Source: Thalassobius sp. Cn5-15 (GTDB lineage Bacteria; Pseudomonadota; Alphaproteobacteria; Rhodobacterales; Rhodobacteraceae). From it: a stretch of DNA of 52,575 nt. A program made the position numbers and the translations under genes. Location of the stretch: assembly GCF_022347685.1 (NCBI RefSeq), contig NZ_JAKRGF010000012.1, positions 1-52,575 of the forward strand, given 5' to 3'. The notes below the pieces were generated by a model. It was not told where the DNA came from, ran no database searches, and worked only from the letters and a program-made list of their open reading frames with translations. Below are positions 34,371 through 52,181 of this stretch, one piece after another. Numbering within the stretch: the stretch's first letter is position 1; each line of letters opens with the position of its first letter.

Positions 34371-34534
34371 CTTACGAACAAAAGTGGGAACTGTGGAAGC
34401 GATCGCTTCGCCGCTCACTATGGCTCGCTCTAATTGTGACCTGCGACCCAAAATCGTAATCTGATCAACACCTACTTTGATCTCGTCAATGATCGCCCGA
34501 AGGAATCCCGCTTTCCTGCTATTGATGGCTCCGC
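34338..34534 (-). pseudogene. Displaced C-terminal tail of the adjacent serine recombinase
   Basis: In a different frame from the recombinase at 34519-35940, the minus strand encodes the kind of ending seen in its relatives: GAINSRKAGFLRAIIDEIKV, DQITILGRR, then FVRKWRRRWDSNPR and a stop. The last eleven codons lie antisense within the 3' half of tRNA-Ser. A change of one base in the neighbourhood of 34530-34550 would join this tail to the upstream protein. Family knowledge: large serine recombinases of alphaproteobacterial islands often end in FVRKWRAR-like residues that run into a tRNA. Confidence 0.7.
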
Positions 34535-35940: not shown

Positions 35941-36075
35941 GGCAATACCCTTCCATGGAATCGCGTTCGAGGCGAAAAATGTGTGCTGGATCGGCTCCAA
36001 CAATAGCCAGTGTAAGAATCAAGGTTCAAGCGAATGTTCGCGTTTGTTCCTGTTGAGCCCTTAGCGCTGGATGCA

Positions 36076-36376: not shown

Positions 36377-36589
36377 ATGTCTGAATACACACATGATCTG
36401 TCGAAAGACGCGCTTTCGGCGGGCGCGAGTACACAGAAAAGCCGTTTCAGGGAAACGTCCCGGTTTTTTGTCGTGAACGAGCTCAAGTCGGTTCGGTTCG
36501 TGACAGAAGAGGAGATCCGCGCGCTCGAAACCTTTTACCAAAAGGATATGAGTGATCTGCTGAATGATAAGAAGGGGGGACGTAAATGA
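36377..36589 (+). CDS. Small protein coupled to a serine recombinase
   Basis: A 70-residue charged protein with no family that I recognise. It begins MSEYTHDLSKDALSAGAS and contains RFFVVNELKSVRFVTEEEIR. The ATG is preceded by GGAGATGAG, and its stop overlaps the start of the following recombinase by 4 nt (ATGA), so it is very likely translated and functionally linked. Candidates are a regulator or a directionality partner of that recombinase; neither is shown by sequence. A basic end (KKGGRK) and acidic centre are visible; there is no membrane segment. Confidence 0.65.
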   Translation: MSEYTHDLSKDALSAGASTQKSRFRETSRFFVVNELKSVRFVTEEEIRALETFYQKDMSDLLNDKKGGRK

Positions 36590-38160
36590 GTTTTCCCTTC
36601 GGTCAAGACTTCCCTGGTACCCAGCTTAACGCGATCCTTTACGCCAGAGTGTCATCAGCCGAGCAGGCTAAATCGGATCTATCCATTCCTGATCAGATGG
36701 AGAGCATGCGAAAACACTGTCGACAGGCGGGGATCACTGTCTCGCACGAGTTCTCTGATGCCCGTTCCGGACGTTCATTGGATGGGCGTTCTTTGGGGGA
36801 GATATTGGACATAATCAAGTCCGGTACTGTGACCATCAATCTGCTGATCGTGCATTCTTTCAGTCGTTTGGCACGGGAATCCTACGAAGCTGAATGGCTT
36901 TGGCGAGAGCTGGAAAAACTCGGTGTGCAGATCGTCAGCATTACGCAGCCCATCGAAGATTCACCTACAGGTGGCCTGCTTCGCCAAATGATCAATGTGT
37001 TCGATGAATATACATCGAACGAAATCGCCAAGCATGTCACGAGAACCATGAAGTTCAATGCCGAGCACGGCTTCTGGAATGGGGGTTTGCCGCCCTTTGG
37101 CTACGTCTCGGCTGTCGCCGGTATGCGCGGGAAGAAGGTAAAGAAAAAACTGGCGGTAGACCCTAACGAAGCTGAGGACGTGCGGCTGATCTTCACATTA
37201 TATCTCGACGGTGACGGCAAAACCGGCCCCATGGGCGTCAAGAAAGTAGCGCAATGGATGAACTCTCATGGTCATTCTCGGAGAGGGAGGAACTGGACCA
37301 CGGGTCAACTTCACCGGCTCCTGACCGATGCAGTATATGTAGGGGATTACCTCTTTGGGAAGAAGAAGCCAAAGGATTCACAGGTCATCGTGAAGGTGCC
37401 AGCGATTATAGATGCTCCTACCTTCGACAGGGTCCAAGCGCGACTGCGCGAACACCATCCAATCCTTAAGGCCCCCCGACAAGTCAGTAGCCCGGTCCTG
37501 CTCACCGACACAGCCCGCTGTGGCCACTGCGGGGGCAGCATGGTTTTGGCGACTGGAAAGAGTAACCGGTATCGATACTACACCTGCAGCAATCACAAGC
37601 GAAAAGGCAAATCTGTGTGCCAGGGACAAAATGTACCGATGGAGGAACTCGACAACATCGTGACTGATGCGCTGATCCTGGCACTCGATGATACCGAGCG
37701 AAGCCAAGCTGTGCTCGAGGCGCTGAATCAGCGGATGGATGCTCGGGACGTTGACGAAAAGTCACGAACAGCCGAGCTTCGGCGCGTTCTGAAAGACAAA
37801 GAACAGGCTGTGACTCGCCTTTTTCAGGGTGTCGAGAAGGGGCTGTTCGACCTCGACGACGAACTGTTCCAGGTGCAATACCAAACCGCCCGTTCAGAGC
37901 GGGATATTATAAAAGCTAAGATCGAGGCCCTGACCCGAAACCGGAGTATGCGCATGCAGATGTCCCCGGAGAAGGTGGCCCAGTTTGGCCACTTCCTCAG
38001 CGAGGTGCTGTTGGCTGGTCCCGTTGGTTTTCGAAAAAGATACATCCAAGCGTTTCTGGACAGTGTCGTGGTAAAAGATCGCGTGATCAACATCATTGCT
38101 CGTGAAAACAGTGCGCGGATCAGCATCGACTGCGGCAAAAGCCCGGAAAAGCTGATGTGA
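36586..38160 (+). CDS. Large serine recombinase, intact
   Basis: Site-specific recombinase of 524 residues with all expected parts: resolvase domain (AILYARVSSAEQAKSDLSIP with the nucleophile serine; HSFSRLARESYEAEWLW), recombinase domain (GFWNGGLPPFGYVSAVAG, GPMGVKKVAQWMNSHG), a complete zinc ribbon (CGHCGG and RYRYYTCSNHKRKGKSVCQG), a coiled coil (about residues 390-450) and a C-terminal end FRKRYIQAFLDSVVVKDRVI. It is related to the divergent recombinase at 34519-35940 but is not a recent copy of it. Either may be the integrase of this island; this one has no visible defects. Coupled to the 70-residue gene upstream. Confidence 0.92.
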   Translation: MSFPFGQDFPGTQLNAILYARVSSAEQAKSDLSIPDQMESMRKHCRQAGITVSHEFSDARSGRSLDGRSLGEILDIIKSGTVTINLLIVHSFSRLARESYEAEWLWRELEKLGVQIVSITQPIEDSPTGGLLRQMINVFDEYTSNEIAKHVTRTMKFNAEHGFWNGGLPPFGYVSAVAGMRGKKVKKKLAVDPNEAEDVRLIFTLYLDGDGKTGPMGVKKVAQWMNSHGHSRRGRNWTTGQLHRLLTDAVYVGDYLFGKKKPKDSQVIVKVPAIIDAPTFDRVQARLREHHPILKAPRQVSSPVLLTDTARCGHCGGSMVLATGKSNRYRYYTCSNHKRKGKSVCQGQNVPMEELDNIVTDALILALDDTERSQAVLEALNQRMDARDVDEKSRTAELRRVLKDKEQAVTRLFQGVEKGLFDLDDELFQVQYQTARSERDIIKAKIEALTRNRSMRMQMSPEKVAQFGHFLSEVLLAGPVGFRKRYIQAFLDSVVVKDRVINIIARENSARISIDCGKSPEKLM

Positions 38161-38303: not shown

Positions 38304-38681
38304 ATGTGCTCAACCATTCCTCGTTCCCTCGTTGAACTCCAGGAGTATGCCCGCTTTCACTATGAGGGTCTTCAGAATGCAGCGCTTTTGCTTGCCGGGC
38401 CGTTTGCCCTCAAGCGTGTTCAATCGCTGTTGGACGATATCCTCAGTTCCCGAACAATCACTCGGCGGCTGCAGGTGGGCATCGTCGATATTCACAAGCT
38501 GCTGTCGCTTTATCATGGGCACGATCCGGATCGTATTGAAGCCGCGTATTTTGCTGAGATCGATTTTTGCGACCCCTTCATCGAAGATATCTGCCTGTTG
38601 ACCGAGGCACTTACGGATATTCTTTATCGGCTCGAACTCGATCCTGGTCAGCCTTTGGCTGAATACCTGATGGTTGCCTGA
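38304..38681 (+). CDS. Small helical protein of unknown function (island orphan 1)
   Basis: A 125-residue protein that I do not recognise. AGGAGA lies 8 nt ahead of the ATG. It looks all-helical, with SLVELQEYARFHYEGLQNAA, RVQSLLDDILSSRTITRRL and CLLTEALTDILYRLEL, and has no catalytic motif, signal or membrane segment. It follows the intact recombinase by 143 nt and precedes another small helical orphan, so the two may form a unit. An antisense frame covers much of it but lacks a ribosome site. Confidence 0.6.
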   Translation: MCSTIPRSLVELQEYARFHYEGLQNAALLLAGPFALKRVQSLLDDILSSRTITRRLQVGIVDIHKLLSLYHGHDPDRIEAAYFAEIDFCDPFIEDICLLTEALTDILYRLELDPGQPLAEYLMVA

Positions 38682-38761: not shown

Positions 38762-39181
38762 ATGTTCGAGCAAACTTTGGAAGAATTGGCATTCAATTGC
38801 CTGCGTGTCGGTCGGCAACTCGCCAATGCCTGTGAGCAGGCCGACATATCAGTCCCGGACGAAATGGTTCGGGACTTCCATCATCTGATGGAACGCCTCC
38901 ACGAAGGCGAGATCCTGTGCATAAAGGAGCTTCAGTCACTCGAAGAGCTTTGTGTTCTGATCCGAGATGCCATGAACCGGCTGCGGCCCGGATTTGGTGA
39001 CCAGGAGTTCACCCGCTTTTCGGATGCACATGACATCATGGATCGTGAGCTGAGGCACCTGCATCATGCGATGGTCTGCTATGTAGAGTTGGCCTACCAG
39101 CACAGCCTGGTGCAGGATCGACTGACAGCCATTCGTTGGATGCGCTTCAAAGAACGACAGGCGCGTTCGTCCGCCAGTTGA
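38762..39181 (+). CDS. Small helical protein of unknown function (island orphan 2)
   Basis: A 139-residue protein without a recognised family. AAAGGAG lies 5 nt before the ATG, a strong ribosome site. Predicted helices dominate (TLEELAFNCLRVGRQLANAC, CIKELQSLEELCVLIRDAMN, ELRHLHHAMVCYVELAYQH). It has several histidines and cysteines but no metal motif that I can name. The similar size, fold and spacing to the preceding orphan suggest a pair, although no direct sequence similarity is evident by eye. Confidence 0.65.
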   Translation: MFEQTLEELAFNCLRVGRQLANACEQADISVPDEMVRDFHHLMERLHEGEILCIKELQSLEELCVLIRDAMNRLRPGFGDQEFTRFSDAHDIMDRELRHLHHAMVCYVELAYQHSLVQDRLTAIRWMRFKERQARSSAS

Positions 39182-39294: not shown

Positions 39295-39651
39295 ATGTCA
39301 GACGAAATTCGTTACGCTGTGATTTACGCACGATCGGCCACAGAAACCCCTGCTGGTATCCAGGCTCAAATTTCGGAGTGCAAAGACAGAGCCGATGGTT
39401 CTGGGCTCCAAGTTGAGAGAATATTTCAAGACATAGGAAGCGGCGTAGAAGGCGACCGACCTGGCCTCCAGAGCATGATGGATTTCCTGAAGTCACGGCA
39501 AGGCCAGAAGATGGTTGTAGTCACTGCTGGGCTCAGCAGAATTGCACGATGCGTTGATCTGAGCCGGAAAATACGAGCTGAATTCGCCAACAGGAACGCA
39601 GTGTGTTGGTATGTTAATGCTCCCATCGATCAGCAGAATCTGATCGATTAG
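39295..39651 (+). CDS. Stand-alone resolvase-like domain, nucleophile serine apparently replaced
   Basis: A 118-residue protein covering just the catalytic domain of serine recombinases: YAVIYARSATE (strand 1), AQISECKDRADGSGLQVERI, GDRPGLQSMMDFLKS and VVVTAGLSRIARCVDLSRKI. It stops where the DNA-binding part would begin. Aligned to gamma-delta resolvase (YARVST), the nucleophile position holds alanine (YARSAT), with a serine one residue earlier, while the arginines of SRIAR remain. It could be a regulatory or inactive relative, or use the shifted serine. The ribosome site is weak. No truncation scar was seen, and it ends with its own stop. Confidence 0.7.
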   Translation: MSDEIRYAVIYARSATETPAGIQAQISECKDRADGSGLQVERIFQDIGSGVEGDRPGLQSMMDFLKSRQGQKMVVVTAGLSRIARCVDLSRKIRAEFANRNAVCWYVNAPIDQQNLID

Positions 39652-39851: not shown

Positions 39852-41420
39852 ATGCTGACAGGCGCCATCCGCACTCAAATCGACCAAATCTGGAACGCCT
39901 TCTGGTCAGGGGGCGTGTCCAACCCGCTCTCGGTGATCGAGCAGCTGACCTTCCTGTTGTTCATCAAACGCTTGGACGAGCTTCATACCCGCGAGGAAAG
40001 CAAGGCAGAGACCCTTGGTGTCGAGATGGAGCGCAGGATTTTTCCCGAAGGGACGTTCAAATACAAACTGACGGATGATCCCGACCTGGATGACTACGAA
40101 GACCGCCCCTACAACGATCTGCGTTGGTCCCGGTTCAAGAACTTCGAGTCCCGCGAGATGTTCCGGATCGTGGACAAGCATGTTTTCCCCTTCATGGGCT
40201 CGCTTGGCCAAAAGGGCTCCTCCTTTGGCGCCCACATGGAAGGTGCGCGTCTGGGTATTCCGAGCGCTAAACTCCTCGATAAGGTGGTCCGGATGCTCGA
40301 CGAGATCGACATGGACGACCGCGACACCAAGGGCGACGTCTATGAATACATGCTCGGCAAGATCGCCAGTGCTGGGCAAAACGGCCAATTCCGCACCCCC
40401 CGGCACATCATCCAGCTGATGGTCCATCTGATGGCGCCAAAGCCTGAGGATGTGATCTGTGACCCAGCGGCGGGTACTTGCGGCTTCCTGGTCGCAGCCG
40501 GTGAATATCTTCGGGATACCTATCCTCAGATGCTGCGAAACAAGGAACAGCGCGCGCATTTCCACAATGGCATGTTCCATGGTTTCGACTTCGACACCAC
40601 CATGCTGCGGATTGGGGCGATGAACATGACCCTCCACGGGGTCGACAACCCGGATGTATCCTATAGGGACAGCCTGGCTGAGGAGAAGGGCAGCGATAAG
40701 GAAGCCTATTCGCTGATCCTGGCAAACCCGCCCTTTGCGGGCTCGCTGGACTATGACACTACCGCGAAGGACCTTCTGAAGGTGGTGAAGACCAAAAAGA
40801 CCGAACTGCTGTTTGTGGCGCTCTTCCTGCGCCTGCTGCGCACCGGTGGTCGGGCCGCGGTGGTTGTGCCGGATGGCGTGCTGTTCGGCTCTTCCAAGGC
40901 CCACAGAGACATTCGCAAGATGTTGGTCGAGGATCACAAGCTCGAGGCCATCATCAAGCTGCCCTCGGGCGTGTTCCGGCCCTATGCCGGGGTTTCCTGC
41001 GCTATCGTGATCTTCACCAAGACCACTATCGGCGGCACGGAAAACGTCTGGTTCTATGATATGGCGGCGGATGGGTTCAGCTTGGATGACAAGCGCACGT
41101 CGCTGTTGGATGACGACAAGCTGGGCGTTCAGGCGCAGTTGTCAGAAGATGAGCACACCAAGAACAACCTGCCGGACATTCTGGCGCGATGGGAAAACTT
41201 GGATGGCGAGGCAGAGCGTCCCCGTACGGCACAGAGCTTCATGGTGCCCAAAGAGGATATCATTGCCACCGGTAGCTGGGACCTGTCCCTGAATCGCTAC
41301 AAGGAGATAGAGCACGAAGAGGTCGAGCATCAGGCTCCTGCCGAGATCATCGCGGAGTTGCGAGAAATCGAAAGGGAAATTTCAGAAGGGCTGGAAACGC
41401 TCAAGGGGATGCTGGGATGA
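39852..41420 (+). CDS. hsdM: Type I restriction-modification DNA methyltransferase, HsdM
   Basis: N6-adenine methyltransferase subunit of 522 residues. The N-terminal HsdM helical domain (IDQIWNAFWSGGVSNPLSVI) precedes the methyltransferase core with SAM motif I (DPAAGTCGFLVAAG, about residue 204) and catalytic motif IV (NPPF, about residue 292). With HsdS it would methylate the recognition site and protect host DNA; with HsdR it forms the restriction complex. Its GC-rich codon use resembles the core genome more than the following genes do. The ATG at 39852 starts as HsdM proteins do, though its ribosome site is weak. The stop overlaps the hsdS start by 4 nt (ATGA). Confidence 0.95.
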   Translation: MLTGAIRTQIDQIWNAFWSGGVSNPLSVIEQLTFLLFIKRLDELHTREESKAETLGVEMERRIFPEGTFKYKLTDDPDLDDYEDRPYNDLRWSRFKNFESREMFRIVDKHVFPFMGSLGQKGSSFGAHMEGARLGIPSAKLLDKVVRMLDEIDMDDRDTKGDVYEYMLGKIASAGQNGQFRTPRHIIQLMVHLMAPKPEDVICDPAAGTCGFLVAAGEYLRDTYPQMLRNKEQRAHFHNGMFHGFDFDTTMLRIGAMNMTLHGVDNPDVSYRDSLAEEKGSDKEAYSLILANPPFAGSLDYDTTAKDLLKVVKTKKTELLFVALFLRLLRTGGRAAVVVPDGVLFGSSKAHRDIRKMLVEDHKLEAIIKLPSGVFRPYAGVSCAIVIFTKTTIGGTENVWFYDMAADGFSLDDKRTSLLDDDKLGVQAQLSEDEHTKNNLPDILARWENLDGEAERPRTAQSFMVPKEDIIATGSWDLSLNRYKEIEHEEVEHQAPAEIIAELREIEREISEGLETLKGMLG

Positions 41421-42616
41421 TTACGCGCAATGTCGTGCGCGCTGCTTTTCCAGTGCAGCCGTTAGGTGAAGTCGTCGAATTTCTGGATCACATGCGGAGA
41501 CCTGTAAAGCAAACCGATCGGATAGAGGGAGATTACCCGTACTTTGGGGCAAACGGACAACAAGGTACCATCGACGGATACATTTTCGACGAACCTCTGG
41601 TTTTGGTAGCGGAGGACGGTGGCCATTTTGCAAATCCTGATAGAGGAATAGCCTACCAAATTGAGGGCAAATCGTGGGTCAACAACCATGCTCATGTCTT
41701 GCGTCCCAAGCCTTGCGTGGACATTTCGTTTCTGACCAGGGTGCTCGAAAATTACGATCTGTCGCCCTACATTTCCGGCACAACGCGGGCGAAGCTAACA
41801 AAGGGGCAGGCCGCGAAGATCGAAATCCCACTACCCACACTGGAGGAGCAGAAGCGGATAGCGGGGATTCTGGATCAGGCGGACGCCCTGCGCCGTCTCC
41901 GCACCCGCGCCCTCGACAAGCTAAATACTCTCGGCCAGGCGATCTTTCATGAGATGTTTGGGGATCCTGGTTCCAATCCGTACGGGTGGGATGTTGGCTG
42001 CATCGGTGACCTACTTGAGGAAGCAAAGTATGGGACATCATCGAAGGCCAATGCAGAAGGAAATGGTTTGCCGATCCTTCGCATGGGAAATGTCACATAC
42101 GATGGGCGCATTGATCTAACAGACCTGAAACACATTGAACTGTCTGAACGAGATTTCGAGAAGTACACAACGAAGCGTGGAGACCTGCTTTTCAACCGCA
42201 CCAACAGTAAGGAACTGGTTGGAAAGTCGGCGGTTGTAAAGCAGGAGGAGCCGCTGGCCATTGCTGGATATTTGGTGCGTGCCAGAGCAAATGCTAACGG
42301 GAACACCGACTACATCAGCGGTTATCTGAATAGTCCTCACGGTAAGGCAACGCTGATGGGGATGTGCAAGAACATTGTTGGAATGGCTAATATCAACGCC
42401 AAAGAATTTCAAAGGATCAAAATTGCTCTGCCACCTAAAGACCTACAGGATCAGTACGCCAATAGGATAGACAAGCTGGAACCCCAGGGGGAAAGGTTAT
42501 TGTCGGCTGTCGCCAAAGCAGGTGAACTCTTCTTTTCGTTGCAACATCGAGCTTTCCGGGGAGAACTCTTACGTGCGCGGCGAGTTTTGCGGAGTTCGAG
42601 CCGAAATTCTCGATGA
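41417..42616 (+). CDS. hsdS: Type I restriction-modification specificity subunit HsdS
   Basis: Target-recognition subunit of 399 residues. Two variable domains (about 10-135 and 185-330) each end in a conserved helical spacer: LPTLEEQKRIAGILDQADAL after the first, LPPKDLQDQYANRIDKLEP after the second. The usual C-terminal phrase SLQHRAFRGEL is present, but a further 15 or so arginine/serine-rich residues follow, encoded by DNA that also carries the start of the next gene. Coding begins 4 nt inside hsdM. The recognised sequence cannot be read from the protein. The lower GC content of the variable domains than of hsdM fits domain swapping. Confidence 0.94.
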   Translation: MITRNVVRAAFPVQPLGEVVEFLDHMRRPVKQTDRIEGDYPYFGANGQQGTIDGYIFDEPLVLVAEDGGHFANPDRGIAYQIEGKSWVNNHAHVLRPKPCVDISFLTRVLENYDLSPYISGTTRAKLTKGQAAKIEIPLPTLEEQKRIAGILDQADALRRLRTRALDKLNTLGQAIFHEMFGDPGSNPYGWDVGCIGDLLEEAKYGTSSKANAEGNGLPILRMGNVTYDGRIDLTDLKHIELSERDFEKYTTKRGDLLFNRTNSKELVGKSAVVKQEEPLAIAGYLVRARANANGNTDYISGYLNSPHGKATLMGMCKNIVGMANINAKEFQRIKIALPPKDLQDQYANRIDKLEPQGERLLSAVAKAGELFFSLQHRAFRGELLRARRVLRSSSRNSR

Positions 42617-43565
42617 GATTTTCCTACCGCTCCAGGATCTGGAAGACGTTGATGATTCTCTGTTCCTGGATGTCTTACGCGATACGGTATCAGCGCCAAA
42701 GGCGCCTGTTGCACCCGTGCCATTAAGTCTCAATGAAGAAGGTCAAATTTACCTTCCAGGAGATATAGAGGCATTCGACGCCTACAAGCAGGCTCTTGCC
42801 CGGTATCAGGAACAAAAGGAGGCATTTAATGATGCTTCCTCGCAAGAAGATCTTGCATGGGAGTATCTGCGTAGCTTTTACCTCGACCCTGAAACGTCCG
42901 AGGCACAGCTTGTCAAAGCTCTGGAGGGTGCCTTTGAAGTTGTTGACGATTTTGGAGGAGGCGAGCTTTCAAATGCCTTCTTTGGCAACGTCGAAGCTTT
43001 CATGGAGAAATATAGTCTTCGATATGATCTTCGTAGGCCCTTCAGTTTGCACCCGACACTGCCTGGCATCTTCTCGCGCCTCGTGTCTAACCTTCGAGAT
43101 GCTACGGCGTCGGATCCTGATCTCGCTGAACTGATGCATGAATTCGAGGAGAGCGTACGAGACCTCAAGTCAGAAAGAACACCGCGAAAAATCAAGCAGT
43201 GCATTTCAGCCCAGTTCAACATCCTGGAGGCCTTGCTTCAGAAGTATCCGGATGTCGCTGAGCACAATCGAAAGGTCGATGCGCACAACGCAACAGCAAG
43301 TCGCAGTAAGCAGAGGAAGCATATCAACACTTTTGGGGCAATGTGCGCAAAGGCCGATGTTTGTCCACATGATGAGGTCCTGAATTCTGCCAAGTCGATC
43401 TACAAGTTCGCATCCGATTATCCTGGTCTGCGTCATGGAGGTACACCCGCCAGCAGAAAGCGCGAAATCGATATGCGGGACATGGTGGCGATGACCGTTG
43501 TCCTGGCCGGTTTCACACCATACCTGACCGATCTTTTGAACGCGGATGCCATCTTTGCGGAGTGA
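42573..43565 (+). CDS. Unknown protein X, overlapping hsdS in the restriction operon
   Basis: A protein of about 330 residues that I do not recognise. The frame must start with GTG or TTG: no ATG occurs until about residue 150. GTG 42573, with GGGGAG 9 nt upstream, is best (MRGEFCGVRAEILDE), giving a 44-nt overlap with hsdS; GTG 42522 is the alternative. Features: a leading acidic region (LEDVDDSLFLDVLRD), a Pro/Val linker (APKAPVAPVPLSL), then mostly helices (YKQALARYQEQKEAFNDASS). The C-terminal part has SAKSIYKFASDYPGLRHGG and EIDMRDMVAMTVVLAGFTPY, which recalls HEPN-like or abortive-infection helical domains. That resemblance is a guess. No catalytic motif is certain. The overlap shows co-translation with hsdMS. 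Confidence 0.8.
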   Translation: MRGEFCGVRAEILDEIFLPLQDLEDVDDSLFLDVLRDTVSAPKAPVAPVPLSLNEEGQIYLPGDIEAFDAYKQALARYQEQKEAFNDASSQEDLAWEYLRSFYLDPETSEAQLVKALEGAFEVVDDFGGGELSNAFFGNVEAFMEKYSLRYDLRRPFSLHPTLPGIFSRLVSNLRDATASDPDLAELMHEFEESVRDLKSERTPRKIKQCISAQFNILEALLQKYPDVAEHNRKVDAHNATASRSKQRKHINTFGAMCAKADVCPHDEVLNSAKSIYKFASDYPGLRHGGTPASRKREIDMRDMVAMTVVLAGFTPYLTDLLNADAIFAE

Positions 43566-43716
43566 TTGATGCTGGAACCAGAACCGCATTCCCTTTCGGT
43601 TCCTGGACCCATGTTGGAACGCGGCTTCCGACTTTACGTGTGACGGCAGCAGGTCGGCTCAGCCACTTTGCTCTAAGTTGGGCGGACTGGGGAAGAGAGT
43701 AGAGGAAGGATGACTG

Positions 43717-43944
43717 ATGGATGATAGAGCGCGGATGTACGAAATTAACAAGATTCTGAAGATGCACGGTATTGAACACGGCAAGCGAGAGGCAGCCTTT
43801 GGCCTCCTCTGGATCGTATTGCATCCTGAATCAAAATCGACATTAACCAGGACCATGTGTGACGATGGAAGCATCCTCAGATTTCAGCGCTGGACACTAT
43901 CTAACAATGGACGGGACAGCGAAATGAAGGTCGAACTCTCATGA
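43717..43944 (+). CDS. Small hypothetical protein between protein X and the GmrSD gene
   Basis: A 75-residue protein with no recognised family. AGGAAGGA lies about 8 nt before the ATG. It starts MDDRARMYEINKILKMHG and contains REAAFGLLWIVLHPESKS. No motif or membrane helix is evident. It could be a small regulator or the head of a decayed gene, since the 500 nt after it look broken. Kept because of its good ribosome site and protein-like composition. Confidence 0.45.
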   Translation: MDDRARMYEINKILKMHGIEHGKREAAFGLLWIVLHPESKSTLTRTMCDDGSILRFQRWTLSNNGRDSEMKVELS

Positions 43945-44449
43945 TCTGTCCCCCCGCGAAATCCCTCACCATGATGTAGAGTCTGCCACCCCTGGAAACC
44001 TGATATGCGTATTCTGCAAAACGGTGTGCTGGTGCCTGGTTTCAGAGAGCGATGTGAAAGACGACACTTTTTCAAAATGCGAGCTACGTGGATTTGGCAA
44101 TCATCGTCGCAATGGTGGTTGTGACCTTGGTGAGCCATAGGATCCTGTGCCATTTGCTGAACACAGCAGGAAGGGATTTCGACGACGATCCGGCGCTAAT
44201 CGACCATTGGGATTTCTCCTTCTATGGATCAATTTTTCCGAGGTGGATGACTTTGAGGCGCACTGACCAAGACGGGATGTCGTCGCTGCCCTGGAAAAGA
44301 AACTCGCCGATACGTTGAAAAGTGTCGATTATGATGTTCTGAATAAAGTGCATTGCAGGAGGCCGCTCGATGAGTCGTCATGGAAAAAGTGAAAGAGCAT
44401 TTCTGCCAGGAATTTCCTGATCTTAAGAACGGTATTTGAGACATTATTC
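43945..44449 (+). pseudogene. Gene-poor stretch with likely decayed coding remnants
   Basis: About 500 nt without an intact gene. From about 44088 a frame reads as protein (LAIIVAMVVVTLVSHRILCH, DHWDFSFYGSIF). One extra T in the TTTTT run near 44236 would continue it as SEVDDFEAH before a stop. A further frame (VVAALEKKLADTLKSVDYDV, LDESSWKK) would join VKEHFCQEFPDLKNGI if one A were added to the AAAAA run near 44393. Repeated homopolymer breaks suggest one or two dead genes, or sequencing slips. Function unknown. Confidence 0.4.
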
Positions 44450-46549
44450 ATGAAAGCAACTGACGCAAACCTCTTAGCCTTCATTAACGCGGCCCCACAG
44501 TTTGTGATTCCGATCTACCAGCGCACATATTCTTGGACAGAGAAAGAATGCCGACAGCTCTGGGATGATATCCTGCGTGCGGGGCGAAGCGACCATATCC
44601 CGGTCCATTTTCTGGGGTCAGTGGTGTACATTGAGGAAAGCCTTTCGAACGCATCCAGCCGGGCACCATTGCTGGTCATTGATGGTCAGCAACGGCTGAC
44701 GTCGGTTTCTCTTCTGCTTGCTGCGCTTGCGAATGCGCTTGGTGACAGCGAACCTGTTGACGGTTTCTCCAGGAAGAAAATCCGAAACCGATACTTGATG
44801 GATCCGGATGAGACTGGCGAAAGGCAGTTCAAGTTGTTGCTTTCCAAGACTGACCGGACAACCCTGAATTCGGTTGTTGCCGGCGATGAATTTCCCGAAC
44901 CGGCGTCGTATCGTGTGAAGGAGAACTTTCGACTGTTTTCGGATTGGTTGTCTGGGGACAACACGGTGGTGGCTGATATATGTGCAGGTCTGGCGAAGCT
45001 CATGATTGTCGATGTCGCCCTGAGCCGCGAACACGACAATCCTCAGCTGATTTTTGAAAGCATGAACTCGACAGGAAAGGAGCTGTCTCAGGCTGATCTC
45101 ATCAGGAATTTCATCCTTATGGGGCTTGAACCAAAACTGCAAACCCGACTCTACGAACAGTATTGGCGCAAGATGGAAGAGGGGTTTGGGCAAATCGCCT
45201 ACGCCAGCCACTTTGACAGCTTCATGCGTCACTATTTGGCCGTGGCCACCGGGAACCTGCCTCGCCGAGATGATGTCTACGAAGCATTCAAAGACTACTC
45301 GCGCCGCAAATCTGCGGAAGGCAAAGTGACAGAAGACCTTGTTCAGGAATTGCGAAAATTCGCTCGCTTTTATTGTGCGATTGCGTTGGGACAGGAGGCA
45401 GACCAAAAGCTCAATACGGCATTCAAGGACCTTCGTGAGCTTCGTGTGGATGTTTCATACCCATTTCTATTGGAAGTCTATGCCGACTTCGAAGATGGGC
45501 TGCTGGATGGCGAAGATTTTCACAAGATTGTTCGCTTGATCGAGTCGTATGTCTTCCGGAGAGCCGTCTGTGCGGTGCCAACAAACTCCCTGAACAAGAC
45601 TTTTGCCACTTTCAGCAGGTCATTGAAAAAGGACCGGTATCTTGAAAGTGTGATGGCTCATTTCATGAACATGAAGTCCTATCGCAGGTTTCCACGAGAC
45701 GAAGAATTTGCGTCGCGCTTGATAGAACGAGATTTGTACAATTTCCGGAGCAGATCCTACTGGCTACGCCGCTTCGAAAACTATGGCCGCAAGGAACGTG
45801 TTCACGTTGATGACTACACCATCGAACACATCCTTCCGCAGAACGATAACCTTTCTCCGGCTTGGCGCAGTTCACTCGGTGCAGATTGGAAATCAGTCCA
45901 GGAAAAATGGTTGCATACCATCGGCAACTTAACCTTGACGGGCTACAATTCAGAGATGAGCGATAGGCCATTCCAAGAAAAGCGGGACATGGAAGGCGGC
46001 TTCAAAGAAAGTCCACTTCGTGTGAACAAAGGCTTGGCCGGAATAGATTTTTGGAATGAAGCTGCCATCCTGGACCGCGCTAAACGCATGGTCCAGCACG
46101 CTGTCGTCGTTTGGACGGCACCCGAGCTGTCTCCCTCAATTCTTGAAAGTTACCAAAGCCAGCCCGAGAAATCGGAGAAGTATTCCATAGAAGATCACCC
46201 GAACTTGGCGGGAGGAGTAATCCGAGATCTATTCGAAGGATTTAGGCGAGAAGTGACAGCCCTGGATCCATGCGTGTCGGAAGAGTTCCTGAAGCTCTAC
46301 GTCGCCTACAAAGCGGAAACCAATTTTGTTGATGTCGTCCCGCAGGCCAAAGCTCTGAGGATTTCACTTAACATCGATTTGCCTGATCTGAATGATCCAC
46401 ACAATTTGGCGATGGATGTCTCAAGTGTCGGGCGGTGGGGAAACGGAAACACAGAGGTCAAAATGACATGCCTTGAGCAACTGCCATACGTGATTGGCTT
46501 GGTTCGCCAATCACTCGATCGGCAACTTGGAGAGGGTTCGGCGATATGA
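44450..46549 (+). CDS. GmrSD-type DUF262/HNH nuclease (modification-dependent restriction)
   Basis: A single-chain GmrS-GmrD fusion of 699 residues. The N-terminal DUF262 ParB-like domain shows IPIYQRTYSWTEKEC and the defining LVIDGQQRLTSVSLLL (DGQQR near residue 78). The DUF1524 HNH nuclease domain has DYTIEHILPQ (about residue 458) and IGNLTLTGYNSEMSDRPFQE. The C-terminal part (about 590-690) resembles DUF5655, with EEFLKLYVAYKAETNFVDVV and a DLPDLNDPHNLAMDVS region. By family knowledge these enzymes use nucleoside triphosphate and cut DNA with modified cytosines, such as glucosylated phage DNA. Its stop overlaps the hsdR start by 4 nt (ATGA), so it is translationally tied to the type I system. 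Confidence 0.9.
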   Translation: MKATDANLLAFINAAPQFVIPIYQRTYSWTEKECRQLWDDILRAGRSDHIPVHFLGSVVYIEESLSNASSRAPLLVIDGQQRLTSVSLLLAALANALGDSEPVDGFSRKKIRNRYLMDPDETGERQFKLLLSKTDRTTLNSVVAGDEFPEPASYRVKENFRLFSDWLSGDNTVVADICAGLAKLMIVDVALSREHDNPQLIFESMNSTGKELSQADLIRNFILMGLEPKLQTRLYEQYWRKMEEGFGQIAYASHFDSFMRHYLAVATGNLPRRDDVYEAFKDYSRRKSAEGKVTEDLVQELRKFARFYCAIALGQEADQKLNTAFKDLRELRVDVSYPFLLEVYADFEDGLLDGEDFHKIVRLIESYVFRRAVCAVPTNSLNKTFATFSRSLKKDRYLESVMAHFMNMKSYRRFPRDEEFASRLIERDLYNFRSRSYWLRRFENYGRKERVHVDDYTIEHILPQNDNLSPAWRSSLGADWKSVQEKWLHTIGNLTLTGYNSEMSDRPFQEKRDMEGGFKESPLRVNKGLAGIDFWNEAAILDRAKRMVQHAVVVWTAPELSPSILESYQSQPEKSEKYSIEDHPNLAGGVIRDLFEGFRREVTALDPCVSEEFLKLYVAYKAETNFVDVVPQAKALRISLNIDLPDLNDPHNLAMDVSSVGRWGNGNTEVKMTCLEQLPYVIGLVRQSLDRQLGEGSAI

Positions 46550-49500
46550 GCCAGTTTCGCTTTCTTGAAGCAGAATTTACCCAGTTGTTCGAGCTGTCCG
46601 GCAAGGCTGAAACGGCCGCACTTTCGGATCCTCGTGGCTCCTGTTTCTGGGCGCGGCTGACGCTTGAAACCGCCATGAAATGGCTCTACCGCCGGGATCC
46701 TGCATTGAGAAAGCCCTACAATGCTACTCTTGCAGCATTGATTGCCGAACCAAGCCTTGCAGCTCTGACTGGGCCAGGAATTGTCACCAAAGCGCGGTAC
46801 ATCAAAGATCAGGGCAACCGAGCGGCCCACGACAGCGGAAAAAAGATCAGCTCCCAGGATGCTGCTTCGACTGTCAGAGAGTTGTTCCATGTCTGTTACT
46901 GGATTGCGCGGACCTACTCCCAGGGTGCGAAACCAGACCCAGCTCTGAAATTCGATGCTGGGAAGCTGGAAAAAACGCTGACAATCACGGCGAGCACTGT
47001 TCGACAGATTAAGGAACTTGGTGACAAGCACGCAGCGGCCCAGAAAGCTCTGGAGGATGCCGAAGAAGCCCGTAGAGCCTCGGAGGAAGGGCGGAAGGCT
47101 CTTGAGGAGGAGCTGGCCTCCCTGAGGGCTGAGGTCGCTGCTGCACGTGCAGCCAATCAGGCAGTTCCTGATCCTCATGATTATGACGAAGCCGCAACAA
47201 GGGATGCTTTCATCGACCTTCTTCTCTCGGAAGCAGGCTGGCCTCTCGACCAGGAACGTGACCGTGAGTTTCCAGTTCTTGGCATGCCAAACCAATCTGG
47301 CAAAGGATTTGTTGACTACGTGCTATGGGGCGATGATGGAAGGCCCTTGGCGGTTGTTGAAGCGAAGAGGACCAGGAAAGACAGTCGAATTGGGCAACAG
47401 CAGGCAAAACTTTATGCAGATTGCCTTGAGAAGATGTATGGTCAGCGTCCGGCTATTTTTACGACGAACGGGTATGAGCACTGGTTCTGGGATGACAAAA
47501 TGTACCCGCCTCGACAGGTGTCGGGTTTCCTGAAGAAAGACGAGCTGGTCCTTCTTCAGCAACGGCGTGCGACCAGGAAAAACCTCGGGAAGATCGCTGT
47601 AGACGAGGATATCGCAGGCCGTTTTTACCAGCAGCGGGCCATACGTCGCGTCGGGGAGGCCTTCGAAAAAGACCGGCAACGCAAGGCCCTTCTGGTCATG
47701 GCTACCGGCAGCGGAAAGACCCGGACAGTCATCGCCTTGATTGACCAGCTTATGCGCGCGAACTGGGTGCGTAGGGTGTTGTTCCTTGCGGATCGGGTGG
47801 CTCTGGTCAAACAAGCTCATGGCGCTTTCAAGACCCATTTGCCTTCTGCACCAAGCGCGAACCTCTTGGAGCGCCATGATCCTTCAAAAAACGATCACGC
47901 CGGCGCGCGCGTGATGCTTTCGACCTATCCGACCATGATGGGATTGATCGATGAGGTGAAAGGGGGCGAAAAACGCTTCGGACCAGGGCATTTCGACCTG
48001 ATCGTCATCGATGAAGCCCACCGCTCAGTTTACCGGAAGTACCGAGCGATTTTTGAGTACTTCGATAGTCTGTTGGTTGGGCTTACTGCTACCCCAAGGG
48101 ACGAGATTGATCGGGATACATACTCACTCTTCCAGCTTGAGCGGGGAGTTCCTACGGATGCATATGATCTGGATGATGCGGTATCCGACGGTTACCTTGT
48201 CCCACCTAAATCAATTTCTGTTCCCTTGAAGTTCCAGAGAAGCGGCATTTCTTACGACGAACTTTCCGAAGAAGAAAAAGACGAGTGGGACAACCTTGAG
48301 TGGGACGAGGAAGGGAATGTTCCCGACCACGTTGATGCCGGAGATTTGAACGAATGGCTGTTCAACAAAGATACCGTGGACAAGGTCCTGGAGCACCTGA
48401 TGGTCAATGGTATCAAAGTTTCCGGTGGGGATCGGCTCGGAAAAACTATTGTCTTTGCCAAGAGCAGCAAGCATGCCCAGTTTCTCGTCGAAAGGTTCAA
48501 TGCCAATTACCCGCACTACCAGGGAAAATTTGCCCAGCTTATAGACTATAGCGTTCCCTATGCTCAGTCTTTGATTGACGATTTTTCCGAGGCTGAGAAA
48601 AACCCAAGCATCGCCGTTTCAGTCGACATGATGGACACCGGTATCGATGTTCCTGAAGTGTTAAACCTCGTATTCTTCAAGATTGTTCGCTCCAAGACGA
48701 AGTTCTGGCAGATGGTTGGCCGAGGTACACGCTTGTGTCCGGACTTGTTCGGGCCAGGGGAGGACAAGCAGGAATTTCTGATTTTTGACTTTTGCCAGAA
48801 CCTGGAATTTTTCCGCGAAAACCCGAAGGCGATGGACGCAGCGGTGGCAAGACCAATCGGAGAACGTTTGTTCACAGCAAGGGTCGACCTGATAGGCGAA
48901 ATTCAGGACCAGGACGAGCCGCACGAAGAGCTTGTTTCCGAGTTGAAATCCCGGTTGTCGGAAGAAGTACGGGGCATGAACACGGAAAATTTCCTGGTGC
49001 GCGCCAAAAGGCGTGCCGTCGAGGAATTCCAGAATTCAGAAAATTGGGAGCATCTCAGTTTCGACGATCGGATGACGCTCTGCGACGATGTCGCTGGGCT
49101 GCCAAGTTCTTTTGAGGATGATGGGCTACCCGCTAAACAGTTCGATTTGTTGCTTCTCAATGCCCAACTTATGCTTCTGCGTGCGGACACAGGGTTTGCC
49201 CGCCTCCAGGACCGGATTGTCAAGTTTGCGGCATCCTTGGCGACGCTGCCCAATGTACCTGCGGTTTCTCGGGAGATGGAGCTCATCCTGGAAATTCAGA
49301 CGGATGAATTTTGGGTCGATGTAACCGTTGAGATTCTGGAAGACATCCGGAGACGACTTCGCCTGCTTGCAGACCTTATCAAACCCCAGGAACGCAAAAT
49401 CGTCATCACGGACTTTGAGGACGAAATTGGGCGAGGCGATCAAATCGATTTGCCTGATGTCGGCAGCGGTTTTGACAAGGCTCGCTTCAAGATGAAGGTG

Positions 49501-49941
49501 CGGCGGTTCATCGAAGAACACTCCGATCATGTAGCTCTTCAACGGATCAGGAGAGCGATCCCAGTGACGGAACAGGATCTCAGTGAACTTGAGGGAATGC
49601 TTGTTGAGTTGGGAGTGGCAGAAGAAAGCCACTTGGAAGAGATTCGAACCGATACCGGTTTGGCGAACTTCTTGAGGTCTTTGACTGGACTGGATCGCTC
49701 AGCAGCCAAGGCAGCATTTTCCGAGTTTTCTGCTAACCATCAACTCAATGGGGACCAGGCCGAGTTCATTGATCTGCTGATCGATTTCCTGTGTGAAAAT
49801 GGGTCCGTCGATCCTAAGCTCTTCTACGACAGCCCGTTCACGGATCTTGACGATATGGGAATTGCAGGCGTTTTTTCCGTGTCTCAGGTGAAGGAAATTA
49901 TCGGGATTGTGCGCGCCATCAACCAAGCGGACGCGGCATAG
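46546..49941 (+). CDS. hsdR: Type I restriction enzyme R subunit, HsdR (EcoEI-like)
   Basis: Translocating endonuclease subunit of 1131 residues. An N-terminal helical DUF4145-like domain (FWARLTLETAMKWLYRRD, KDQGNRAAHDSGKKISSQD) leads through a coiled coil (about 155-205) to the PD-(D/E)xK nuclease (GFVDYVLWGDD near residue 254, VVEAKRTRK near 269). The SF2 motor follows: Walker A ATGSGKTR (about 386), DEAHRS (about 489), GLTATPRDEIDRDTYSLF and MVGRGTRLCPDLFG. The end matches EcoEI_R_C. It cuts unmodified DNA after ATP-driven translocation, together with HsdM and HsdS. Unusually, hsdR is not next to hsdMS: protein X, a decayed stretch and the GmrSD gene lie between. Confidence 0.94.
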   Translation: MSQFRFLEAEFTQLFELSGKAETAALSDPRGSCFWARLTLETAMKWLYRRDPALRKPYNATLAALIAEPSLAALTGPGIVTKARYIKDQGNRAAHDSGKKISSQDAASTVRELFHVCYWIARTYSQGAKPDPALKFDAGKLEKTLTITASTVRQIKELGDKHAAAQKALEDAEEARRASEEGRKALEEELASLRAEVAAARAANQAVPDPHDYDEAATRDAFIDLLLSEAGWPLDQERDREFPVLGMPNQSGKGFVDYVLWGDDGRPLAVVEAKRTRKDSRIGQQQAKLYADCLEKMYGQRPAIFTTNGYEHWFWDDKMYPPRQVSGFLKKDELVLLQQRRATRKNLGKIAVDEDIAGRFYQQRAIRRVGEAFEKDRQRKALLVMATGSGKTRTVIALIDQLMRANWVRRVLFLADRVALVKQAHGAFKTHLPSAPSANLLERHDPSKNDHAGARVMLSTYPTMMGLIDEVKGGEKRFGPGHFDLIVIDEAHRSVYRKYRAIFEYFDSLLVGLTATPRDEIDRDTYSLFQLERGVPTDAYDLDDAVSDGYLVPPKSISVPLKFQRSGISYDELSEEEKDEWDNLEWDEEGNVPDHVDAGDLNEWLFNKDTVDKVLEHLMVNGIKVSGGDRLGKTIVFAKSSKHAQFLVERFNANYPHYQGKFAQLIDYSVPYAQSLIDDFSEAEKNPSIAVSVDMMDTGIDVPEVLNLVFFKIVRSKTKFWQMVGRGTRLCPDLFGPGEDKQEFLIFDFCQNLEFFRENPKAMDAAVARPIGERLFTARVDLIGEIQDQDEPHEELVSELKSRLSEEVRGMNTENFLVRAKRRAVEEFQNSENWEHLSFDDRMTLCDDVAGLPSSFEDDGLPAKQFDLLLLNAQLMLLRADTGFARLQDRIVKFAASLATLPNVPAVSREMELILEIQTDEFWVDVTVEILEDIRRRLRLLADLIKPQERKIVITDFEDEIGRGDQIDLPDVGSGFDKARFKMKVRRFIEEHSDHVALQRIRRAIPVTEQDLSELEGMLVELGVAEESHLEEIRTDTGLANFLRSLTGLDRSAAKAAFSEFSANHQLNGDQAEFIDLLIDFLCENGSVDPKLFYDSPFTDLDDMGIAGVFSVSQVKEIIGIVRAINQADAA

Positions 49942-50153: not shown

Positions 50154-52181
50154 ATGCAGTTGTCGTCTTTTCGGATTCAAAATTTTCGTTCCATCGCAGA
50201 TAGTGGCGAAATCATGGCGTCTCGAATTACTGCTCTTCTGGGGCGGAATGAGAGCGGGAAAACCAACCTACTTCGGGCACTGGCGAGTTTGAAGCCGCCT
50301 GAGGGGATCTCGGAACTGTCTAAAATTAAGGATTTTCCGCGAAATCGGCGCCTAAGTGAATGTACACCTGACACACCTGTGGTGGAGACCAGTTGGGAAC
50401 TCACGGAGCAAGAGTGGAACCTTTTGCAGGGAATCTGGCCGCGCGCAAAGGCTGGAGAGCCTGTCCGTGTTGGCCGCAATTACGCCAAGGGAAGATGGGT
50501 AAGTATTCCTGCGAACCCTATCGAATTCGATCAGAAGCACATTTCTTCGGTCGTCAAAAAAACTTCGTTGGCCGCCAAGGCAGTTGCAGACAAGCTGGAG
50601 GAGGGCGCCAAGTTGTCTCTTGTAGCTGCGGCTGACGCATTCGCGGAACAGTCTGCACCTGGAGATTGCGCCAAAACATGGGCTTCTGCATTGAAGTCCG
50701 CAACTGAGGCACTTGGCATTGCTTTGGCAGCTGCTGATGCAGAGCTTTCAGAAAAGCAGGATGACGCATTGTCGAGCCTTGCAGATCTTGCCGAACAGAT
50801 CCTGAATGATGAAACCGCGCACCAGTCTGCAAGAAACTGGGTAGGTCAACATCTTCCCACCTTCGTGTATCTTGCTGATTATCCTGAGATCGAAGGGCAC
50901 CAAGATATTTCCGCATTTCTTCAGCGGAAACAACAAGACCAACAAACGGATGCGGACATCAATTTCGAAAAGATGTGCAGAGTTGCCGACCTTGATCCGG
51001 AGCGCCTGCAAGAGTTGGTGAACTCGAACACCGAGGAGCGCAACCAGCTGGCGAACCGTGCAAGTGCCGTCATTTCTGGCGAACTTCAGAGCCTTTGGAC
51101 CGATAGAAAGCTCAAGGTCCGCTTCAATCCAGATGGCAATCACTTGGAAACCATGGTCTCCGAGGTAACCGATAACTATGACGTTGAGGTCAACCTTGAT
51201 GAGCGCAGTAGAGGTTTCCAGTGGTTCTTCGGTTTCTACATGATCTTCTCGGCCGACACTCAGGGCGGCGAAAAAGACGGCGCCATTTTGTTGCTCGATG
51301 AGCCAGGCCTCTATCTTCACGCCAAATCTCAAGGGGATCTGCTGCGACACTTGGAAAATGATTTCAAGAACCAGATCCTCTATACGACGCATTCGCCCTT
51401 TATGGTACCGACGCACCATCTCGACTGGGTGCGCACCGTAAATATCAGCGTCGACAAGGGCACGTCGGTTACGAACGATCCCACTGGAGATGCTCGTACG
51501 TTGTTTCCTTTACAAGCCGCGCTTGGATACGATCTGGCGCAAAGCCTTTTTCTTGGCGGTGCCAATCTGGTAGTTGAGGGCGTCACCGACTATTGGCTGT
51601 TGTCAGCAGCATCTGAATACCTTTCCGAGATTGGTGGCGTTGGGCTCGATTCCAGGCTCACTCTGACACCCGCAGGAGGTGCACAAAAGATCCCATACAT
51701 GGTCTCTTTGCTCGTCTCTGAAAACCTCGACGTCATAGTTCTCCTTGATCATGAAAAGGATGCCGCAGCGACCAAGAATGGCTTGATCAAAGGCAAACTA
51801 CTTAGAGATCAGAACGTCGTGTCGATCGCTGATGCATTCCTGGAAGAGAGCCGTCCGAATGAGGCAGACGTAGAGGATCTTCTGGATGCTGCAGTATATG
51901 AGGCCCTCGTTAGGGAAAGCTACGAGAAGGAACTTCAAGGAAAAACTCTGAAAATCAACGAGCGGATCCCTCGCTTGGCGAAACGAATGGAACAAGCCTT
52001 CCAGGAAGTTGGCCTGGAATTCAACAAAACCCGCCCCATGCGGCTCTTCCTAAGAAAAATGGGAACTGATCCGGGTGCCGTAATGACCGACGGTGCAAAG
52101 GATAGAATTGGAAGGCTATTCACCGCCACAAATGAGCGTTTTGAGCGACATGTCGCACGTGATGGTCAGCCGTTCGACTAA
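50154..52181 (+). CDS. OLD-family ATPase/TOPRIM nuclease
   Basis: Overcoming-lysogenization-defect type protein of 675 residues. The N-terminal ABC-type ATPase shows LSSFRIQNFRSIADSG and Walker A GRNESGKTN (about residue 29), a middle coiled region (about 150-290), and Walker B LLLLDEPGLYLHAKSQ (about 377). The C-terminal TOPRIM domain has LVVEGVTDYWLLSAAS (glutamate near 474) and VIVLLDHEKDA (aspartate near 530), the metal-binding residues of OLD nucleases. AAGGGG lies 8 nt before the ATG. The 212-nt gap before it is AT-rich and probably carries its own promoter. No UvrD-like helicase (GajB) or retron follows within the window, so it is a class 1-like OLD rather than a complete Gabija. Likely an anti-phage nuclease. 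Confidence 0.88.
   Translation: MQLSSFRIQNFRSIADSGEIMASRITALLGRNESGKTNLLRALASLKPPEGISELSKIKDFPRNRRLSECTPDTPVVETSWELTEQEWNLLQGIWPRAKAGEPVRVGRNYAKGRWVSIPANPIEFDQKHISSVVKKTSLAAKAVADKLEEGAKLSLVAAADAFAEQSAPGDCAKTWASALKSATEALGIALAAADAELSEKQDDALSSLADLAEQILNDETAHQSARNWVGQHLPTFVYLADYPEIEGHQDISAFLQRKQQDQQTDADINFEKMCRVADLDPERLQELVNSNTEERNQLANRASAVISGELQSLWTDRKLKVRFNPDGNHLETMVSEVTDNYDVEVNLDERSRGFQWFFGFYMIFSADTQGGEKDGAILLLDEPGLYLHAKSQGDLLRHLENDFKNQILYTTHSPFMVPTHHLDWVRTVNISVDKGTSVTNDPTGDARTLFPLQAALGYDLAQSLFLGGANLVVEGVTDYWLLSAASEYLSEIGGVGLDSRLTLTPAGGAQKIPYMVSLLVSENLDVIVLLDHEKDAAATKNGLIKGKLLRDQNVVSIADAFLEESRPNEADVEDLLDAAVYEALVRESYEKELQGKTLKINERIPRLAKRMEQAFQEVGLEFNKTRPMRLFLRKMGTDPGAVMTDGAKDRIGRLFTATNERFERHVARDGQPFD

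Follow-up and report, generated by a model that had tools for sequence, protein, structure and literature searches.

Protein X, a putative AbiJ-like HEPN protein encoded directly behind hsdS in a type I restriction operon that also carries a GmrSD-type gene

Here we describe protein X, the product of a gene that directly follows hsdS in a type I restriction-modification (R-M) operon of the alphaproteobacterium Thalassobius sp. Cn5-15. The operon lies on contig NZ_JAKRGF010000012.1, whose entire 52.6-kb length (52,575 nt, from a 3.5-Mb genome) we call the window, and it reads hsdM-hsdS-X-(pseudogene)-GmrSD-hsdR. By sequence comparison, the C-terminal half of X is homologous to the HEPN domain of the AbiJ-NTD4 abortive-infection proteins, whereas a preliminary description of this DNA had recognised no family for it. 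That restriction operons can contain HEPN proteins and type IV nucleases is already known in outline; what is new in this locus is the X family, an R-M-linked AbiJ-like HEPN protein that has an N-terminal region of its own, keeps a strict distance from hsdS and carries its arginine at a shifted position. The reading that we put forward, with confidence and doubt about evenly balanced, draws on the analogy with PrrC: X would be a second line of defence guarded by the restriction complex, and GmrSD an independent cargo directed against modified DNA.

X comprises an N-terminal helical region, a beta-hairpin with the motif RYDLRR (aa 148-166), and the AbiJ-like HEPN domain (about aa 163-330). Residues 209-320 match the C-terminal domain of three AbiJ-NTD4 proteins with an hhalign probability of 96.4 and an E value of 1.1e-9, one pair compared by BLASTP gave E 3e-8 (valid for that single comparison), and the C-terminal domain of AbiJ is described as HEPN (PMC3710099, cited here, like PMC12707154, PMC11411939 and PMC4619093, from the accessible part of its text). 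In a comparison of folds, the predicted AF2 model of X (pLDDT 89) ranked a HEPN toxin first, and a Foldseek search of the model against the PDB and viral models returned no match at E<=0.001. There was no Pfam or NCBIfam match to X; Pfam detected in it neither DUF262 nor an ABC-ATPase domain, and AbiJ_NTD4 (PF18863) was found neither in the window's X nor in those of loci L014, L038, L049 and L116. A profile of X searched against the PDB had a sole match below 0.001, the designed-repeat protein 5cwb (6.5e-5), which we took as a helical artefact, and the single sequence gave nothing under 0.3. X and AbiJ-NTD4 (CBY_0614 type; PADLOC PDC-S32) have in common a YG-x(6)-GIRH segment in their C-terminal HEPN domains; X differs in lacking the AbiJ_NTD4 match, in its own N-terminal region with the hairpin, and in its tie to hsdS. 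A literature search found no description of X, most subscription papers being outside its reach. AbiJ proteins without N-terminal domains are reported to be more frequent in R-M operons (PMC3710099), and these may include relatives of X.

Active HEPN ribonucleases carry an Rx4-6H motif (PMC3710099). We compared the site across alignment A3, whose 47 rows are the window, L010 and 45 of the 48 loci from a scan of genome contigs (L048, L060 and L063 were left out as broken or truncated). The HEPN histidine, H288, is invariant in all 47 rows. An arginine stands directly before it (R287, position -1) in 42 rows and at R280 in the other five, never at both places and never at neither; the five R280 rows, which read Rx7H in four cases and Rx6H in L056, may trace back to one or two events. 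The RH form is common to all three AbiJ-NTD4 relatives, and the upstream acidic Ex3[KR] element has a counterpart in [ED]192-x3-[RK]196 in 44 of the 47 rows, an equivalence that is our own assignment. Variant HEPN sites in which the arginine is replaced are allowed in other families (PMC3710099), and ribonuclease activity of X by an alternative arrangement of these residues is plausible. Against that reading, the canonical arginine is missing in 46 of 47 rows, only L056 fitting Rx4-6H, and with this non-canonical motif X is possibly a non-catalytic subunit. The main rival explanation starts here. On this view X has no catalytic role and is no toxin: as a HEPN adaptor or regulatory subunit of the type I complex it would contact HsdS, HsdM or HsdR and adjust assembly, restriction or self-protection. 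We regard this explanation as possible though rather doubtful. Besides the missing arginine, it can appeal to conservation, the most conserved part of X being the RYDLRR hairpin (mean pairwise identity 0.82 over aa 148-166 vs 0.54 over aa 261-325) and not the HEPN motif. It has to contend with the invariant H288, with an arginine always at one of two nearby places, a pattern that suggests an active site, and with the abortive-infection proteins to which X is kin.

The gene order given in the preliminary description, including its remnant between X and GmrSD, agrees with the coordinates, the common + strand and the Pfam domains of the parts:

39852..41420, + strand: hsdM, type I N6-adenine methyltransferase subunit, 522 aa (Pfam N6_Mtase 1.1e-57, HsdM_N 7e-16; NPPF motif)
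41417..42616, + strand: hsdS, specificity subunit, 399 aa (Pfam Methylase_S in two stretches; DNA alignment with three relatives)
42573..43565, + strand: X, 330 aa (start placed at the M-x-G-E motif that 47 aligned rows share)
43566..44449, + strand: degraded, split pseudogene of a GIY-YIG-like slot gene of about 170 aa (tblastn with intact copies)
44450..46549, + strand: GmrSD, single-chain DUF262 + DUF1524 + DUF5655 protein, 699 aa (GmrSD_N 5e-34, GmrSD_C 2e-24, DUF5655 6e-8)
46546..49941, + strand: hsdR, translocase/nuclease subunit, 1131 aa (ResIII 1.5e-37, EcoEI_R_C 8e-21, N-terminal DUF4145 4.6e-7)

With methyltransferase, specificity and helicase-nuclease domains in HsdM, HsdS and HsdR, the operon looks intact and belongs to the DUF4145-HsdR (EcoEI-like) kind of type I system. 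HsdR has EAK and DEAH motifs and, in MATGSGKT, a looser form of Walker A (the strict Walker A pattern found no match), GmrSD has DGQQR and EHILP, and 4-nt overlaps join hsdM to hsdS and GmrSD to hsdR (46546-46549). The operon's nearest relatives are in Tritonibacter aquimaris, Pseudophaeobacter sp. EL27 and Ruegeria sp. TM1040, and the order hsdM-hsdS-X-GmrSD-hsdR recurs in other genera, so it is not peculiar to the window.

The spacing between hsdS and X is strict. X starts at the GTG at 42573 and not at 42522, where it had been placed before; an M-x-G-E start is common to all 47 aligned rows (MRGE in at least 90%), with a start-calling script that favoured an [RK]GE start wherever one was in frame. 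The overlap of X with hsdS that had been described is real and measures 44 nt from the corrected start. At the end of hsdS three relatives read CTC TGA, CTC TAA or GTG TAA, then one base, then ATG, and the window reads CTC TTA C GTG; the hsdS stop, usually found after ...AFRGEL, has been lost there, adding 15 C-terminal residues to HsdS, and it is because of this loss that the genes overlap by 44 nt, a change private to this genome. In 39 of the 48 loci of the scan, the start codon of X falls between -1 and +3 nt of the hsdS stop, a near-zero spacing that would also suit a subunit of the complex. The exceptions are L031-L035 (about 805 nt), L026 (579 nt), L047 and L048 (352 and 124 nt, with disturbed frames) and L036, which has hsdR and no detected hsdS. 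An inserted gene accounts for the wider gaps, a GIY-YIG-like gene in L026 and a Ymh gene in L033 (by Pfam) and in L032, L034 and L035 (by alignment), with that of L031 inferred to be Ymh from the spacing.

The Ymh proteins (PF09509) are themselves HEPN proteins in the hsdS-hsdR gap of the same hsd type (L033, L052 and L075 by Pfam; L032, L034 and L035 by alignment). They differ from X in their canonical RNPLAH motif, and hhalign detected no relation of the X HEPN domain to these slot Ymh proteins, nor to the DUF4145 region of HsdR. L032-L035, in which Ymh stands between hsdS and X, thus have two HEPN proteins in one hsd operon, and the best PADLOC match of the L033 Ymh protein is PD-Lambda-3_B.

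We also considered X as a partner of HsdS specificity. The hint came from the window compared with L017 and L018, where HsdM and HsdR are 94-97% identical, X 60-61% and HsdS 27-29%. Other pairs break the pattern: L032/L034 (HsdS 35%, X 97%), L017/L018 (27% and 90%) and L020/L057 (30% and 90%). Over 37 loci (L028 and L076 being a single genome counted twice) the rank correlation of X identity is 0.53 with HsdR, 0.37 with HsdM and 0.14 with HsdS, and X is thus unmatched to HsdS target recognition. L019 and L025 have HsdM, HsdR and GmrSD that are 95-98% identical, but HsdS only 32% and X 41%; the hsdS-X section seems to have been exchanged between these otherwise near-identical operons.

X is a widespread family. 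It was recovered from 6 of the 390 genomes of the order, the window's among them, and from the 48 loci of the genome-contig scan, which used patterns taken from the X start and the hairpin and misses relatives that lack either. Outside the scan it turned up in one plasmid record, one unannotated phage scaffold record (three pieces) and two viral contigs. As titled, the hosts include Alpha-, Beta- and Gammaproteobacteria, the named strain Geothrix paludis, a Nitrospira chromosome assembly, Gemmatimonadetes and Methanoregula assemblies; several of the phylum labels belong to metagenome bins and may be wrong, the 'Verrucomicrobia' locus L022 being nearly identical to that of Celeribacter (L025). 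Wherever X was found in a genome or virus, hsd genes stand beside it: in all 48 genome loci (L036 without a detected hsdS), in both viral contigs (L117 has hsdM and hsdR next to X and no detected hsdS) and in the phage record. This constancy is what a subunit of the Hsd complex would show. It runs counter to another alternative, namely that X and GmrSD are unrelated defence genes sharing an operon, X being a free-standing abortive-infection gene that uses hsdS for its expression and makes no contact with the Hsd proteins, since such a gene should also occur alone, as GmrSD does; we consider this improbable.

A search that started from HsdR gives the complementary view. It recovered this HsdR in 10 of 385 genomes of the class and 11 of 295 of the family (the window in both), that is, in 19 genomes besides the window (9 + 10), from which we dropped L082, L102 and L103 (37-40% identity, no X) and left out a second copy in G292 (36% identical). 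Among the 16 loci of the same HsdR clade, X is present in seven (L014, L074, L076, L078, L080, L081 and L101, the last looking frame-broken) and a GmrSD orthologue in two (L080 and L081). X is thus absent from 9 of 16, so it is no required subunit, which counts against the subunit explanation. A quick HsdR tree of 51 rows calls for at least 7 changes for X and at least 9 for GmrSD; most of its X-bearing rows entered via X, so that the scatter is informative and the frequency is not. Both genes come and go among these operons, as unrelated neighbours would.

The closest precedent for a guarded X is PrrC, a HEPN anticodon nuclease in the EcoprrI hsd locus that is silenced by EcoprrI and released when phage T4 blocks EcoprrI (PMC3710099, PMC12707154), and a PrrC-like mode has been proposed for R-M-linked HEPN proteins generally (PMC3710099). 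Like PrrC of the type Ic EcoprrI system, X is encoded within a type I hsd locus, as a putative HEPN-fold protein in a proposed role as second line once restriction is blocked; PrrC, in contrast, combines a conserved HEPN motif with an ABC-ATPase at its N terminus, whereas X has no ATPase and a non-canonical motif. We favour the PrrC-like guardian because X lies directly behind hsdS, is kin to abortive-infection HEPN proteins, and would act in the mode already proposed for such proteins. Starting from the observed gene order, spacing, HEPN homology and cargo exchange, its course would be as follows. X would be made by start-stop coupling right after HsdS, and so probably in step with it, and would stay bound to HsdMS or HsdMSR. 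Once a phage blocked or overwhelmed this complex, X would be released or activated and would act on RNA, much as PrrC does in EcoprrI, with growth arrest or abortive infection as the outcome. GmrSD, from its slot between X and hsdR, would independently cut the modified-base DNA of phages that is hidden from HsdR. More tentatively, X may found an undescribed family of HsdS-tethered guardians, AbiJ-like HEPN ribonucleases with a relocated active-site arginine that are produced in step with HsdS, spread over several bacterial phyla and an archaeal assembly, firing when the type I complex is disabled and having an exchangeable second effector beside them. Few guardians of restriction enzymes have been worked out, PrrC and PARIS being those named in the accessible text of PMC12707154, and a recurrent family absent from Pfam, placed behind hsdS and with a defined histidine and a swapped arginine, offers a directly testable further case.

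In this restriction type, the gap that separates hsdS from hsdR is a slot in which defence genes are exchanged. The remnant noticed earlier is indeed degraded sequence, and it can now be assigned to a split GIY-YIG-like slot gene: intact copies searched by tblastn against 43566-44449 matched with E values of 3.5e-12 (L014), 3.2e-10 (L024), 3.1e-10 (L098) and 3.8e-9 (L038). These four loci carry the gene of about 170 aa intact in the gap; its name is a motif reading, and the L014 copy has no Pfam match. The remnant consists of two recognisable parts about 0.5 kb apart, and the same two-part remains, 94-95% identical, occur in Tritonibacter (L017) and Pseudophaeobacter (L018). A 75-aa open reading frame (ORF) inside the pseudogene, at 43717-43944, is open with few substitutions in the window, L017 and L018, and is possibly a small gene carried by the insertion. 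Other cargo in the gap includes T5orf172 (L015/L056, L029, L080), Schlafen-AlbA with HATPase (L037, L042, L059, L062), Fic (L049), Ymh HEPN (L033, L052, L075), DUF429 (L052) and a further GmrSD-type protein (L044), and further ORFs there have no Pfam match. This variety of cargo is what a shared operon of unrelated defence genes would predict, and it makes the gap a place to look for new ones. X is the sole gene of at least 90 aa between hsdS and hsdR in 18 distinct loci.

GmrSD, by its sequence, belongs with the type IV nucleases (DUF262 with DGQQR, DUF1524 with EHxxP). Its 4-nt overlap with hsdR, already pointed out in the preliminary description, is conserved in 11 of 13 related loci (10 computed, and L030, with a GTG start, read by hand), the exceptions being L018 (+5) and L052 (+26). 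Conservation of this overlap and the recurrence of the gene order spoke for the earlier proposal; what spoke against it is that operons of this hsd type usually lack GmrSD and that the X/hsdS overlap is private. The window and 13 related loci have both X and GmrSD between hsdS and hsdR, and in 9 of the 13 the two are immediate neighbours. Of the 48 X loci, 10 carry an intact GmrSD orthologue, with some contigs stopping short of hsdR; L011 and L017 have a GmrSD without its middle. Co-occurrence of this sort could suggest that X works with GmrSD as a two-protein nuclease for modified DNA, in the way of TgvA and TgvB. We hold this to be very improbable, X being without DUF262, standing as the only gene of at least 90 aa in 18 gaps, and failing to accompany GmrSD in the plasmid records opened besides that of Ruegeria. 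Plasmids gave matches to GmrSD in 32 records, six of which were opened besides that of Ruegeria (the gene table of the opened records is incomplete), and in those six no X adjoins the GmrSD relatives (53-66% identity). No hsd genes adjoin the relatives of Aminobacter (54.7%) and Arthrobacter (53.4%); in Planktothrix (62.7%) the sole hsdR-annotated gene is 7 kb off, at the stretch's edge; and in Sulfitobacter (65.5%), Picosynechococcus (56.8%) and one E. coli record (58.6%, the gene lying in two frames) a different type I operon is nearby on the other strand. Because homologues also lie outside hsd operons on plasmids, GmrSD is interchangeable cargo. Another type I locus, in Picosynechococcus PCC 7003 (L107, 4416-5059), has a DUF86 and nucleotidyltransferase pair (HEPN-MNT-like) between hsdM and hsdS.

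A GmrSD inside a type I operon is already known in kind. TgvAB is a GmrSD-type system embedded in the type I locus of V. cholerae VPI-2, where tgvAB was the source of protection against the phages tested, and this protection persisted in an hsdR nuclease mutant (PMC11411939). Our locus resembles it in having a DUF262/DUF1524 protein with DGQQR and a His-Me finger inside an hsd operon, and in the complementary defence proposed there; TgvAB, however, needs two DUF262 proteins, whereas here one DUF262 protein is in the operon (and a PF03235 search of the whole genome gave one match), a single-chain GmrSD with a DUF5655 tail, the other embedded gene being the AbiJ-like X. RloF (R-linked ORF) of Campylobacter jejuni, a different host, is another DUF262 gene of a type I locus and lies, as GmrSD does here, between hsdS and hsdR (PMC4619093). 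The two-layer defence proposed earlier, with HsdR taking unmodified and GmrSD modified DNA, fits this anatomy and the work on TgvAB and RloF; X and GmrSD do not form one unit, contrary to what it had implied.

Just upstream of the operon lie two divergently transcribed large serine recombinases (34519-36003, - strand; 36586-38160, + strand). The recombinase at 36586, the ORFs at 38304-38681 and 38762-39181 and a resolvase fragment at 39295-39651 accompany the hsd operon in L011 with 97-99% identity, and the same recombinase and two small ORFs, without the resolvase fragment, do so in L012 with 95-97% identity; the operon and the recombinase may move together. Directly downstream of hsdR, at 50154-52181, is an OLD/GajA-like AAA ATPase gene with a TOPRIM match below the Pfam cut-off, and in L031 and L035 homologues of it with 59% identity are encoded upstream of hsdM, on the opposite strand.

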